DNA of 38,086 nt from Bacteroidales bacterium (GTDB lineage Bacteria > Bacteroidota > Bacteroidia > Bacteroidales > UBA932). The position numbers and the translations under genes are program-made. Where the stretch lies: positions 1 to 38,086 of the forward strand of contig JAFRPW010000017.1 in assembly GCA_017428945.1 (NCBI GenBank). Direction: 5' to 3'. Position 1 is the first letter of the stretch; each line of letters begins with the position of its first letter. The notes under the pieces were generated by a model that did not search any database, was not told the origin of the DNA, and saw only the letters and a program-made list of their open reading frames with translations. Below are positions 34,379 to 38,086 of the stretch, piece after piece.

Positions 34379-36676
34379 CTTATAGGATAATGTTATGTAC
34401 TCGCAGTAAACAGAATTGGCTGCAGCAGTTATTACCACAGTTACAGTTTCACCTGTGCCGATGGTTGTTGCTGTAACGGTTGCCTCCTGATCACTGTATG
34501 TGCTACCAAGTACAGGGACAGAATAAGAGCCGAACTCTGTTGATCCATGCATCATGGAAACGGATCCTGTACCCTTTGATGCATTTGTCCTTAAATGAAG
34601 AGTTAATCCGGTAATTGTCTTGCCATCAAAACCTGTGATGGTATAAGTCATGGACTTTCCGCTAGTTAACTGATTAGAGTTTGTATACGTTGTTGTCCAT
34701 GAACAAGCAGAACCAGCCGGAGCGGTCCCAGTTGTTGCCACAGTATGTCCTGTGCCAGAGTATGCCTGGGTGTATGTGACGGTATATGTAGGTGTCGCAG
34801 AGCCAAGCTGATTCACGTCAATCTGGATGAGGTTGCCGCCAGGGACGGATAATTTAATCCAACCGGAACGGGCAGCGCCAGTATTCTCAGCAACATCATA
34901 CATTACAGTGCCTCCATCAACAATTGCATCTGTTACAACCGTCCCGTCTACGTCTATAACTACATCGCCGTCAACAGCATTAGTAAGGCTATATACGCCT
35001 ATTTCAACCTCTCCAGATACACCAGCAGCGGGGACATCATCAATTGAATCCTTAAGTTTGTTGATTGAAGGCTGAAGTGCAAAGGTCGCGGTAACTGTAA
35101 CATCCTTTGCAGGCATGGAGAACTGGTTCTCGGAAACTGCAACATTGGCAGATGATGCGTCCACAACCGTAAGGGAAGAAAGTATGTACCCGTCATCAGG
35201 AGTTGCCGTAATGGTAACAAGGGCTCCTTCTTCTGCCTTGGAAGCAGGGCTAGTAGAAACGGTACCATGCGATGCTGGCGCTATGGTAATATTATACTCA
35301 ACTGCAGGAGTAATCAGCATCTTCTTGTAGAATGCGGTCTGGGTAGATGCAATATTACCGGTTGTACTTGTGTAGCAACGCCAGTCCTGATCATTATAAA
35401 CACCTACATATCTGCTTGTGGCAACGTTCTTCAGATAGCCGCCCTCCCATACAAATACTTTATTGGCATTTGTTCCTACACGAACACCATTATTTGAAGT
35501 GGTAGTATACAGATAATTTGTTGTATTAACAGCCTTGAAGGAATAATTATTTGCCTCAGGAATCTCCAGGACAAACTGAAGAGCTTCTGCAGGAGTAGCG
35601 GAGAGCTTGTTGGAAGAAATAGAAACAGATGATGCAGTAGGTGCTGAACTGGATCCATTCGCACTTGTCAGAGCAGTAGAAGATGCCTCATCAACAATAA
35701 CTATCACATCACCAGCAACAAGACTTCCGATAGGAGTCTTAACCCAGGAGTAAGGATCCGGAGCGGCATCATAGTCAAAGTTAACAGTCTTCATCTTTCC
35801 AGCCTGGAAAGCGAAGTCCTTGGTGGTGTGGATGGTCTTCTCATAGCCGTTCACGGCAACCTTGATATCGTCTCCGCTTGTGGTGGAAAACGGCTTTACG
35901 CCAATGTAGAAAGTTGCATAAGCATCCTTGGCGATGGGAGTACCGTCAGTAACCGTAAGATTGGCCACATCGCTTACATAAGTACTGTACTTGGTTATTG
36001 TAAGCGGCGTAGTATCAAAATGTATTTCATACTGCCCCACAATCTCACTGCCTTCAGGAGCGGTGAATGACACGGAGGTTACAGTAAGGGGATCGTCCGT
36101 CTTGTTGGTAACCTTAATCTCGATGAAAGACGCAATGGGAGAAAGGGTAACGGACGGGGTCTCGTCATAAGCTACTCCTGCAGCCTTGCCAAAAAGCGGA
36201 TAATTGGTTCCGCAAAGGTGCGCAGTGCTGCTGTTACCCGTCTGTTCCTGCGCCTGGTCCGAGCGCTTGCCAATATAAAAACGCGCCGGGGATGCCGGAT
36301 TATTATCCACAGTGTGCAGATAACTGTTATATGGATAAACAGCATACCAGTCGTAAGTGCCGGACGCAAGCTCGGAGGCAAGAGTGCCGGTGAACGTAAC
36401 GGAAGTACCGGCAGACTCGGTAGTGAACTTGCCGTCGTCAACATAAGTGGTGCTGCCGGCAACCGCATGTAATAAGTTTATTTCGTCATCGGCCGCCCAC
36501 TGGGTCTGAAGGCCGTCAATTGTGGTCTTTGTTGCAGGGTTAGCTACAATCTCGAAAGGAATTCCTTCCTTGATGATTTCCTCTTTGTAGTTGGGATCGT
36601 TGGCTTCCTTTGCGCAGGAAACGAGGGTCAGTGCGGCTGCCGCAATAACACCAAAATAAGCAGAAATCTTTCTCAT
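34376..36676 (-). CDS. Fimbrillin-like/BACON lipoprotein, N-terminal part of a split secreted nuclease
   Basis: A 766-aa lipoprotein (LTLVSC, Cys21). Domains in order: a fimbrillin-like domain (about 35-320, beginning ATKTTIDGLQTQWAADDEI); a beta domain starting GDVIVIVDEAS (about 335-450); an InlB-type B-repeat (ITIAPASHGTVSTSPASK, about 460-530); a BACON-like Ig domain (about 540-625); and a C-terminal beta-sandwich to ITLSYK. It is anchored at the cell surface or periplasm. The frame continues past the TGA into a nuclease, so the original protein was a surface-tethered nuclease of about 1155 aa. The ATG is two bases after the 55-aa ORF stop, so translation is coupled, and both are read from the promoter in the candidate invertible segment. 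Confidence 0.85.
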   Translation of the reverse strand: MRKISAYFGVIAAAALTLVSCAKEANDPNYKEEIIKEGIPFEIVANPATKTTIDGLQTQWAADDEINLLHAVAGSTTYVDDGKFTTESAGTSVTFTGTLASELASGTYDWYAVYPYNSYLHTVDNNPASPARFYIGKRSDQAQEQTGNSSTAHLCGTNYPLFGKAAGVAYDETPSVTLSPIASFIEIKVTNKTDDPLTVTSVSFTAPEGSEIVGQYEIHFDTTPLTITKYSTYVSDVANLTVTDGTPIAKDAYATFYIGVKPFSTTSGDDIKVAVNGYEKTIHTTKDFAFQAGKMKTVNFDYDAAPDPYSWVKTPIGSLVAGDVIVIVDEASSTALTSANGSSSAPTASSVSISSNKLSATPAEALQFVLEIPEANNYSFKAVNTTNYLYTTTSNNGVRVGTNANKVFVWEGGYLKNVATSRYVGVYNDQDWRCYTSTTGNIASTQTAFYKKMLITPAVEYNITIAPASHGTVSTSPASKAEEGALVTITATPDDGYILSSLTVVDASSANVAVSENQFSMPAKDVTVTATFALQPSINKLKDSIDDVPAAGVSGEVEIGVYSLTNAVDGDVVIDVDGTVVTDAIVDGGTVMYDVAENTGAARSGWIKLSVPGGNLIQIDVNQLGSATPTYTVTYTQAYSGTGHTVATTGTAPAGSACSWTTTYTNSNQLTSGKSMTYTITGFDGKTITGLTLHLRTNASKGTGSVSMMHGSTEFGSYSVPVLGSTYSDQEATVTATTIGTGETVTVVITAAANSVYCEYITLSYK

Positions 36677-36678
36677 GG

Positions 36679-36846
36679 CTAGAAAATGTTAGGAAGGATT
36701 TCACTTGCGCCAAATACGTTCAACGGATCACCGTCGTTGGAGATTGGATCGATGCCCATTCCGGCAGAATCCAGGAAATTCTCCTCGAATCGTATCACGA
36801 GGAGCTCCGCTTCAGGAGCGGTGTAAAAGCGATTTTTGTGTGACAT
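36679..36846 (-). CDS. 55-aa small protein preceding the lipoprotein nuclease
   Basis: A small protein beginning MSHKNRFYTAPEAELLVIRF and ending NVFGASEILPNIF. It shares the pattern FYT-(A/S)-PE-x-x-(L/I)-LV-(I/V)-RFEEN with the ORF starting at 38007. Small acidic ORFs of this sort precede large surface lipoprotein genes in Bacteroides as I recall; their role (leader peptide, chaperone, secreted peptide) is unknown. The stop lies two bases before the lipoprotein ATG. Its own ATG sits inside the left arm of the 15-bp inverted repeat. A complete promoter lies 45 bases upstream. Confidence 0.75.
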   Translation of the reverse strand: MSHKNRFYTAPEAELLVIRFEENFLDSAGMGIDPISNDGDPLNVFGASEILPNIF

Positions 36847-36961
36847 AAATAGTTATGGATTTGTTTGAATATTTTCCGCTACAAAAACTCTCAAAGTTAA
36901 TTAATTTAATCCACATTAGCAAAACTATTATCCTCAATATAACAGCATTTATGTCATACAA
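36836..36961. repeat. Inverted-repeat-bounded promoter segment (candidate inverton)
   Basis: TTGTGTGACATAAAT (36836-36850) and its inverted match at 36947-36961 agree at 14 of 15 bases and enclose 96 bp. Both arms contain an ATGTCA that is the start codon of the flanking gene: the 55-aa ORF to the left, the tyrosine recombinase to the right. The enclosed DNA is AT-rich and carries one complete promoter pointing left. Inversion would keep both start codons and frames while reversing the promoter. Confidence 0.6.
36892..36923 (-). promoter_or_regulatory. Complete promoter (TTTG-N20-TAACTTTG) toward the small ORF and nuclease
   Basis: Read leftwards, TTTG (36920-36923) is followed after 20 bases by TAACTTTG (36892-36899), matching the Bacteroidetes -33/-7 promoter. 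The -7 box ends 45 bases before the ATG at 36846. No equally good promoter points toward the recombinase. Confidence 0.7.
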
Positions 36962-37874
36962 TTTCCAACAAGTTGCTTGCCTCTGGAAAGCATACAAGCA
37001 GCAGTTCGTGAAGGAGTCTTCCTTCGCTACATATCTCATGCTCTGTAACAAGTACATACTCCCCTGCTTCGGAACGGGCTATCTTCCTCAAGAACAGTCG
37101 GTTCAGGATTTCATTACCAAAATGCTTGACCGTGGATTCGCGCTTAAGACTGTAAAGGACGTTGTCCTGGTGCTTAAGATGATTGTCCGTTACGGAGAGA
37201 AACTGGGCGCATGGAGTGCGGTAAGCTATGCATTCCATTATCCGGCGCAGATGGAAAGGCCGCGTCAGGTGCAGACGCTCTCCCCTGCCCATACCAAAAA
37301 GCTTCTGAAGCACCTTGGCGCAAACCTTTCTTCAAAGAACCTGGGTCTTCTTATCTGCATTTTTACCGGTCTCCGGATTGGTGAGATCTGTGGCCTTCAG
37401 TGGAAGGATGTTGACCTTCGTGCGGGTGTAATCCGCGTTAACAAAACCGTCCAGCGCATTTATCTGGCCGATGGCTCGCTGAGGCGGTATTATCTGTCAG
37501 TTGGCACGCCAAAGACACTGTCTTCTGTCCGTGAGATTCCGCTCCCTGCACGGGTCTGTGCTGTTCTTAAGCCAATAAAGCGGGATATGCAGCCGGAGAA
37601 TTACTTATTGTCCGGTTGTCCCCTGCCGCTTGAGCCGCGGACGTACCGTGACTACTATCATCGCCTGCTGAAGGAGCTGGGACTCCCGCGCCTGCGGTTT
37701 CATGCTCTCAGGCACAGTTTTGCCACGCGCTGTATTGACAGCCGATGTGACTACAAGACCGTGTCTTCCATCCTTGGCCATGCGTCTATTGCCACCACGA
37801 TGAATCTTTACGTTCATCCGGACCTTTCTCAGAAGCGTAAGTGTGTCGAGCGGGTTGCTAAGGGATGGGTTTGA
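36951..37874 (+). CDS. Tyrosine recombinase (site-specific integrase)
   Basis: A 307-aa tyrosine recombinase with an N-terminal core-binding domain and a complete catalytic domain: Arg142 in TGLRIGEICGL, a likely Lys188 in TPKTLSSVREIPL, His251 and Arg254 in HALRHSFAT, His277 in LGHAS and nucleophile Tyr287 in MNLYVHP. All needed residues are present, so it should be active. In Bacteroides such solitary recombinases often invert nearby promoters. The ATG at 36951 (MSYNFQQVACLWKAY) is preferred over an in-frame ATG at 36855, because the extra 32 codons cross AT-rich promoter DNA. Its ATG lies in the right arm of the inverted repeat. Confidence 0.92.
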   Translation: MSYNFQQVACLWKAYKQQFVKESSFATYLMLCNKYILPCFGTGYLPQEQSVQDFITKMLDRGFALKTVKDVVLVLKMIVRYGEKLGAWSAVSYAFHYPAQMERPRQVQTLSPAHTKKLLKHLGANLSSKNLGLLICIFTGLRIGEICGLQWKDVDLRAGVIRVNKTVQRIYLADGSLRRYYLSVGTPKTLSSVREIPLPARVCAVLKPIKRDMQPENYLLSGCPLPLEPRTYRDYYHRLLKELGLPRLRFHALRHSFATRCIDSRCDYKTVSSILGHASIATTMNLYVHPDLSQKRKCVERVAKGWV

Positions 37875-38006
37875 GTGCTGGTCGAACACACTGCACAACA
37901 CCGCCGAACACGCTCGCGTGCCTGTTCGCCCCCGGGACGCCACCACCCTTAGGTCCTCCCTTAGGGCGGGAATATTCTGCAATCAAATCCAAAACAATAC
38001 ATGCTT
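37875..38006. other. Intergenic gap with palindromes between recombinase and next small ORF
   Basis: This gap has no TAnnTTTG element that I can find, so the small ORF at 38007 may depend on transcription through the recombinase. CGAACA and TGTTCG pair at 37905-37928 around CGCTCGCGTG; the 14-mer of the ferredoxin terminator occurs here inverted (37905-37918). An octamer CCCTTAGG is repeated at 37946 and 37958. Confidence 0.45.
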
Positions 38007-38086
38007 ATGAACGAAAAACAATTCTACACCTCACCTGAGGTGGACATCCTCGTGGTACGATTCGAGGAAAACATCCTATCCGGTCA
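38007..38086 (+). CDS. Second small ORF of the FYT-PE family, cut by window end
   Basis: A frame starting MNEKQFYTSPEVDILVVRFE and continuing to the window edge. It aligns without gaps to the 55-aa ORF at 36679-36846 over its first 20 residues, and the DNA is also close (for example ACGATTCGAGGA in both). An in-frame ATG at 38001 is also possible, but the alignment favours 38007. By analogy a large surface lipoprotein gene should follow beyond the window. Confidence 0.7.
   Translation, partial: MNEKQFYTSPEVDILVVRFEENILSG

Follow-up and report, generated by a model that had tools for sequence, protein, structure and literature searches.

Salmonella Hin / fljBA is a flagellar switch, and its recombinase Hin is a serine recombinase whose sites lie outside coding sequence. 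The hin gene is described as lying within its own invertible segment (PMC5903667). For Bacteroides fragilis, the Tsr19/BF2766 invertible promoters and the Tsr0667 SusC/SusD shufflon have been described, and TAnnTTTG is given as the Bacteroides -7 consensus (PMC4747536).

We characterized a locus at the right-hand end of a stretch of DNA of 38,086 bp (hereafter, the window), which is the whole of contig C3 from a genome of 2.6 Mb in 47 contigs with 97% completeness. It appears somewhat probable (roughly 0.6) that this locus is a two-state DNA-inversion switch, in which a tyrosine recombinase would act at sites within two small leader ORFs, flipping a promoter and its own gene between two operons.

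Locus anatomy and candidate crossover sites

The genes were found in the order nuclease <- lipoprotein <- ORF A <- promoter / recombinase -> ORF B -> 1052-aa protein -> lipoprotein. On the minus strand, the small leader ORF A (36679..36846; 55 aa, MSHKNRFYTAPEAELLVIRFEENFL...) is the first ORF before a gene for a putative lipoprotein of 766 aa with a divergent InlB B-repeat domain (PF18998; 34376..36676), which is followed downstream by a gene for a protein with a DNA/RNA non-specific endonuclease domain (PF01223; 33209..34177). On the plus strand, the gene for the 307-aa tyrosine recombinase (PF00589; 36951..37874) precedes the small leader ORF B (38007..38086), in which the window ends. This 40-aa ORF (MNEKQFYTSPEVDILVVRFEENILSGQGSSPDDPGSQYGF) runs off the end of C3 and is completed on contig C8, where it is followed by two genes, the first for a putative secreted protein of 1052 aa and the second for a putative lipoprotein of 312 aa. 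The 1052-aa protein possesses CHB_HEX_C and Fn3_assoc domains, along with F5/8-type and BACON matches below the cut-off.

Contig C8 most likely continues C3, because its first 141 bases are exactly the last 141 bases of C3. The break between the two contigs was considered as direct evidence of an inversion between ORFs A and B and was rejected, since the shared 141-mer ends 19 nt past site B (described below) as against the 1-2 nt predicted after such an inversion. It was also noted that a 28-nt element, CCCTTAGGTCCTCCCTTAGGGCGGGAAT, at 37946-37973 of the window recurs at C8:1-28, C29:1-28 (minus strand) and L258:1-28. The element coincides with ends of C8, C29 and the goat MAG contig JAFSRW010000068.1, and one G183 contig ends within a variant of it. 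A search of a plasmid collection returned no match.

ORFs A and B are paralogues that flank the recombinase as a 107-column inverted alignment with 74% identity. The near-identical core CTCGTGRTACGATTCGAGG is found in frame in both ORFs and in opposite orientation, on either side of the promoter and the recombinase. The proposed recombination site A (CTCGTGATACGATTCGAGG; 36783..36801, minus strand) occupies codons 16-22 of ORF A in frame, with one mismatch to the class 1 sequence defined below, and the proposed site B (CTCGTGGTACGATTCGAGG; 38049..38067, plus strand) occupies codons 15-21 of ORF B in frame and is an exact class 1 sequence. The two sites are 18/19 identical on opposite strands, so that inverted copies of one site bound the segment; the one base at which site A differs from site B is a point against their joint use. 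At up to three mismatches, the 19-mer was found in ORFs A and B only across the 2.6-Mb genome (reversed control, 2 matches). The small ORF had no match in Pfam or NCBIfam. We additionally observed a palindrome near a conserved Pro codon upstream of the site in leader ORFs, such as CTGTCTC-CC-GAGACAG (~36807-36821 and 38027-38042).

An earlier note on this DNA had placed the crossover elsewhere, at the arms of an inverted repeat over the two start codons, which would recombine and flip just the 96-bp promoter segment between them. The repeat itself is present as described: TTGTGTGACATAAAT (36836..36850, plus strand) and ATTTATGTCATACAA (36947..36961, minus strand) match at 14/15 positions with 96 bp between the arms, the left arm contains the ATG of the 55-aa ORF A (36846, minus strand), and the right arm contains the ATG at 36951, where homologous recombinases also align their start. 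In favor of this proposal, the arms flank the promoter, directly adjoin the tyrosine recombinase and are rare in local sequence, as 0.3% of 300 shuffled versions of the local 350 bp contain a repeat of at least 14/15. Despite this local rarity, three places in the window hold a repeat of at least 14/15 with a gap of 20-300 nt versus two matches in eight whole-window dinucleotide shuffles, and the repeat is therefore unlikely to have arisen by chance but is not extraordinary given the 38 kb scanned.

However, a comparable arm pair was absent from all other recombinase loci compared. An ATG and enough upstream sequence were available for 61 of the 67 recombinase loci inspected. At these loci, the 15 nt surrounding the recombinase ATG were compared in inverted orientation with the preceding 400 nt, and the highest score was 8-12/15 at the other 60 of the 61. 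Control arms scored much like these 60 loci (8-11/15, once 13), and an arm pair of at least 13/15 was found at this locus only, so the arms were not conserved alongside the recombinase across its homologues. No further copy of the arm sequence was found in the source genome at up to one mismatch. Moreover, the homologous leader ORF in genomes G056 and G252 starts with ATGTTACAAAAAAAT, versus ATGTCACACAAAAAT in ORF A. Because 60 of the 61 loci are without comparable arms and the leader ORF starts of G056 and G252 differ, the arms are most likely the product of two start contexts that converged. Being unique among the 61 loci and unrepeated in the genome, they were rejected as the crossover site, which neither the left nor the right arm probably is, and an inversion confined to the 96-bp segment appears highly improbable. 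The sites in ORFs A and B are the better-supported candidate crossover sites and would bound a segment of ~1.27 kb. A visible inverted repeat can thus distract from a better-supported site nearby.

Distribution and DNA-level fixation of the site

Across one genome per species (84,980 species, in a search that may omit records near the source genome), the exact 19-mer was found in 27 stretches, compared with ~2 expected by chance according to our own rough estimate. All 27 stretches derive from MAGs titled Bacteroidales, Bacteroidia, Bacteroidaceae or Prevotella, and wherever the title names a host, it is a ruminant. A pattern describing two classes of the site returned 43 rows, corresponding to 42 distinct places in 32 of 400 genomes of the genus (the source genome included), versus 5 matches for the reversed control in 400 genomes; the 43rd row is the C8 copy of site B, a duplicate of that on C3, and site A, with its one mismatch, lies outside the 43. 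At all 42 places, the site lies within a leader ORF of a single family and is read in the same frame, and at the inspected loci a large lipoprotein or secreted protein follows the leader ORF wherever the contig extends far enough. One listing of site matches contained 25 matches, a single one of which (G040) fell outside a small ORF, with 8 matches for the controls.

The site is fixed at the DNA level. Class 1 reads CTC GTG GTA CGA TTC GAG (LVVRFE) and class 2 reads CTC GTA GTA CAA NNC GAG (LVVQxE, where x = S, T, V, I or A). Among the LV[VI]RFE leader ORFs with distinct 5' sequence, 25 of 30 write CTCGTGGTACGATTCGAG, identical over 18 nt, and all 13 LVVQxE ORFs write CTCGTAGTACAANNCGAG, varying at non-synonymous positions only; these ORFs were counted by distinct 5' sequence (earlier counts of 30/35 and 14/14 included at least one truncated duplicate), and many of them were recruited by the DNA pattern itself. 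When LV[VI]RFE ORFs were instead taken from the list of a protein profile, itself trained on pattern-recruited ORFs, 17 of 22 were exact (hand count; ORFs with DNA at hand). The class 1 spelling has a probability of 4.8e-4 each by codon-usage chance, with CGA accounting for 4% of Arg codons. In class 2, codon five varies at its first two bases and every third position is fixed, the reverse of what selection on protein would produce. Variation is also seen in the Tyr and Pro codons that lie a few residues before the site. The two classes were never mixed at positions 6, 11 and 13-14 (43 rows). Frozen third-codon positions combined with varying amino acids can serve more generally to reveal DNA sites concealed within coding sequence.

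We then assessed where the homology between leader ORF loci ends, with homology lengths given ungapped and from the site outward. Of 1176 pairs, 15 had 5' 45 nt that were at least 85% identical, and 3' identity was 0.58 or lower in 11 of these 15 (background mean 0.46), although the 11 discordant pairs are not independent, 8 of them involving G037 or G183. The G037 pair shares 120 nt at 93% identity upstream of the site and 2 nt downstream, ORF B of the source genome shares 69 nt at 96% upstream and 5 nt downstream with the goat-reticulum contig JAFSRW010000068.1, and G355 and G221 share 44 nt upstream and 2 nt downstream. The reverse case was encountered in G253 and G267, with 6 nt upstream and 50 nt at 98% downstream. 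Less sharp boundaries were found for the G183 pair (62 nt at 100% upstream and 26 nt at 73% downstream, the second copy being cut by a contig end) and for G183 and G288 (70 nt at 93% upstream and 24 nt at 62% downstream), and three contrast pairs were homologous on both sides of the site. A boundary at the site is partly expected for pairs that are alike in their 5' half, because all of these ORFs carry the site. In addition, a contig end is reached within 300 nt at 6 of the 42 places, versus 0.85 expected (p ~2e-4), and contig G056:C19 begins within a site. This enrichment of contig ends suggests structural heterogeneity at the sites, with other causes being possible.

Recombinase, promoter and the proposed switch

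As the earlier note had read it, the tyrosine recombinase to the right of the promoter is intact. Its PF00589 match reaches 92.5 bits, and the catalytic domain and the R-K-HxxR-H-Y residues were located within the motifs TGLRIGE (R), PKT (K), HALRH, GHASI and NLYVHP (Y), all of which were found. By sequence, the best solved relatives are the Int protein 6emy, presumably that of Tn1549, to which residues 109-303 align, and XerC/XerA/XerD-like enzymes. A search of 200 genomes of the genus returned 71 recombinase places in 52 genomes (72 places entered the statistics versus the 71 listed), and 67 of the 71 rows were inspected (the window and 66 others), with four fragments left out.

Full-length homologues of the recombinase within 4 kb of a site were found in this genome, G056, G037, G183, G146, G263 and G288, the others being 47-54% identical to our own, and the recombinase near a site in G060 is only 26% identical. 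By a rough estimate from the 200 genomes, ~0.05 strong homologues would be expected by chance within 4 kb of the 42 sites, G263 and G288 coming from outside these 200. The G037 recombinase is 78% identical to a G081 recombinase that adjoins an inverted pair of type I specificity (hsdS) genes, which have in common a 30-nt 5' repeat (TAATGTCCCGAATTTGAGATTCCCGGG...) and of which one copy lies directly behind hsdM (L183:2861-6880). DNA inversion beside a gene start would be the most natural activity for this recombinase family, because its members adjoin hsdS-like starts (within ~1.5 kb at 10 of 67 loci) or leader ORFs (5 of 67, this one included). We also noted a second, truncated recombinase C-terminus in the source genome (G000:C15:27804-28049; L006:5805-6050), which is 77% identical over 82 aa. 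Separately, an inverted repeat TTTGTGTTTT...AAAACACAAA, or a near form of it, spans the -7/start region and the first codons of several recombinase genes (spotted by eye at L041, L042, L053 and others) and possibly serves autoregulation.

The complete leftward promoter reported between the start-codon arms was recovered by consensus on the minus strand (36892..36922), with TTG at 36920-36922, a 20-nt spacer and TAACTTTG at 36892-36899. It stands before ORF A, whereas upstream of ORF B no consensus promoter was found, with no TAnnTTTG within 420 nt upstream of site B. The nuclease-lipoprotein operon behind ORF A would accordingly be read as ON in the present orientation, as had been proposed, and operon B as OFF. 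Across the leader ORF family, 31 of 47 site-bearing ORFs versus 4 of 20 siteless members have TTG-N19..21-TAnnTTTG in the preceding 300 nt (three of 50 site-bearing ORFs, with less than 290 nt upstream and no promoter, were set aside), and the same pattern occurs in 0.4% of shuffled upstream sequences. In this genome, G056 and G037, the inverted pair that adjoins a recombinase was found to have exactly one promoter, the promoter-bearing partner being ORF A here, the right ORF in G056 (whose left ORF is cut by the contig start, with just 140 nt inspected for a promoter) and the distal, not the recombinase-proximal, ORF in G037. The inverted pair in G076 has two promoters and no recombinase nearby. 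A recombinase or fragment lies within 4 kb of 8 of 16 promoterless versus 4 of 31 promoter-bearing copies (p 0.01; hand count), a count that includes two fragments (G038 and G146:C34), the distant G060 recombinase (26% identical) and some loci with less than 4 kb of flank.

From these features, we propose that the recombinase acts on a ~20-bp asymmetric site, CCTCGTGGTACGATTCGAGG, in frame in leader ORFs A and B. As the sites are inverted on either side of the segment holding the promoter and the recombinase, ~36792-38058 (~1.27 kb) would invert, carrying the recombinase along and moving the single recognisable strong promoter between the A/lipoprotein/nuclease operon and the B/1052-aa secreted-protein operon. 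After a flip, the ORF A operon would stand behind the 3' end of the recombinase, where it would be without a recognisable promoter. Since the sites share their codon phase, each flip would swap just the first ~15 codons of the leader ORFs, both of which would stay open, and the downstream proteins would be unchanged. When the segment was inverted in silico, no reading frame was interrupted in the hybrid leader ORFs (41 and 54 aa) or in the 307-aa recombinase, so that the survival of both coding frames, claimed by the earlier note for its shorter segment, also applies to an inversion at the leader-ORF sites. The second small ORF at 38007 and the genes that follow it stand as the alternative target that had been suggested, but not by the suggested read-through of the recombinase, as the larger segment would bring the promoter straight to ORF B. 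Elsewhere in the genus, copies without a promoter, which often lie beside a recombinase, may act as silent cassettes for a promoter-bearing expression site. In G056, the A-type operon takes a different position with respect to the recombinase than in the window; this difference was considered as proof of inversion and rejected, because the two recombinases are just 47% identical.

Another role was considered for the site, namely that of a regulatory element controlling the surface-lipoprotein operons, with the recombinase being incidental or acting elsewhere. The likeliest form of such an element would be a pair of RNA hairpins in the 5' leader, and another form would be an operator for a DNA-binding protein. 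An RNA role could also explain the fixed sequence, because the site can fold as a CCUCG/CGAGG hairpin and a palindrome often lies upstream: the hairpin CCUCG-N10-CGAGG was predicted in four of five leaders folded, and the palindrome was more stable than synonymous recodings at p<=0.05 in 10 of 42 cases (combined p 2e-7, the rows not being independent). The site goes with strong promoters (the 31/47 versus 4/20 given above) and is kept at loci without an adjoining recombinase. The main evidence against the switch comes from the 200 genomes searched, where 10 of 18 site-bearing genomes were without a close recombinase homologue, and a strong homologue (E<=1e-40) was found in 8 of 18 site-bearing genomes versus 44 of 182 others (p 0.09; hand count, the MAGs being incomplete). 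At one G252 locus (L224, G252:C3), about the last 39 bases of a recombinase ORF lie directly upstream (of 2496) of an intact site and promoter, and this locus looks locked after recombinase loss; at a G124 locus syntenic with G183 and G288, the site is present with one mismatch and the recombinase is not beside it. The 8/18 count, the G252 remnant and the recombinase-free G124 locus speak against the switch and are the reasons why the site could have another role; the G076 pair, with its two promoters and no recombinase nearby, is a further point against the switch. However, just one of the five leaders clearly surpassed its shuffled versions in folding (z -2.4, versus -0.6 to -1.0 for the other four), 8 of the 42 upstream stretches showed no folding, the register of the palindrome varies, and Rfam returned no match near the cut-off for window positions 36600-38086 (one far below). 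A regulatory role alone also leaves unexplained the inverted pairs around recombinases, the single promoter per pair and the homology that ends at the site, and we regard it as unlikely.

The presence or absence of the recombinase at otherwise alike loci (G056/G252 and G183/G124) and its solved relatives, Int and the Xer-like enzymes, would also fit the integrase of a small mobile element with an attachment site in leader ORFs, whereby integration and decay, and no switch, would account for the locus. This explanation appears improbable, since cargo or transfer genes were not recognised beside the recombinase, the sites are inverted and not direct in five same-class pairs on the same contig (in this genome, G056, G037, G183 and G076), and close relatives of the recombinase adjoin inverted hsdS pairs. 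The two-state inversion switch is the reading that we prefer.

Comparison with known inversion systems

Extending the proposed switch beyond this locus, we tentatively consider a genus-wide surface-variation system in uncultured ruminant-gut Bacteroidales, which is possible although doubtful. The small leader ORF would be a frame-safe recombination adaptor with a fixed 20-bp site in two mutually exclusive alleles (G..G..TT and A..A..NN), and tyrosine recombinases would shift a single promoter between numerous unrelated lipoprotein operons, through inversion of linked pairs and through cassette exchange between strains. If the switch operates as proposed, the tiny variable ORF before many large surface lipoproteins would be explained as the host of a crossover, one promoter could serve exchangeable operons while the surface protein is left intact, and the 19-bp sequence could be used to search uncultured Bacteroidales for surface operons that are candidates for phase variation. 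In the open-access literature searched, a crossover site in a translated leader ORF that is DNA-fixed across species was not found, and the 15-mer core of the site had no match. DNA inversion that switches surface operons is already known, and the new part would be the crossover site that is embedded in a leader ORF and fixed at the DNA level.

Similar to Hin / fljBA, the recombinase and the promoter would lie inside the invertible segment, and a flip would change the expressed surface operon. Unlike Hin, the enzyme is a tyrosine recombinase, the sites are in translated leader ORFs, and the two orientations would each directly serve an operon of their own. The locus resembles Tsr19/BF2766 and Tsr0667, as these are described, in that Bacteroidales invertases would switch surface-protein operons by means of the same TAnnTTTG promoter type; it differs from Tsr19 and Tsr0667 as described in PMC4747536 in having an in-frame leader-ORF site that is DNA-fixed across species and comprises two classes. 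A further likeness is to the type I hsdS inversion systems, through the 78% identical relative of the G037 recombinase that lies beside an inverted hsdS pair. In hsdS systems, the exchange would involve the specificity gene itself, at its 5' end, whereas here a separate small leader ORF would absorb the exchange and the surface proteins would stay whole.
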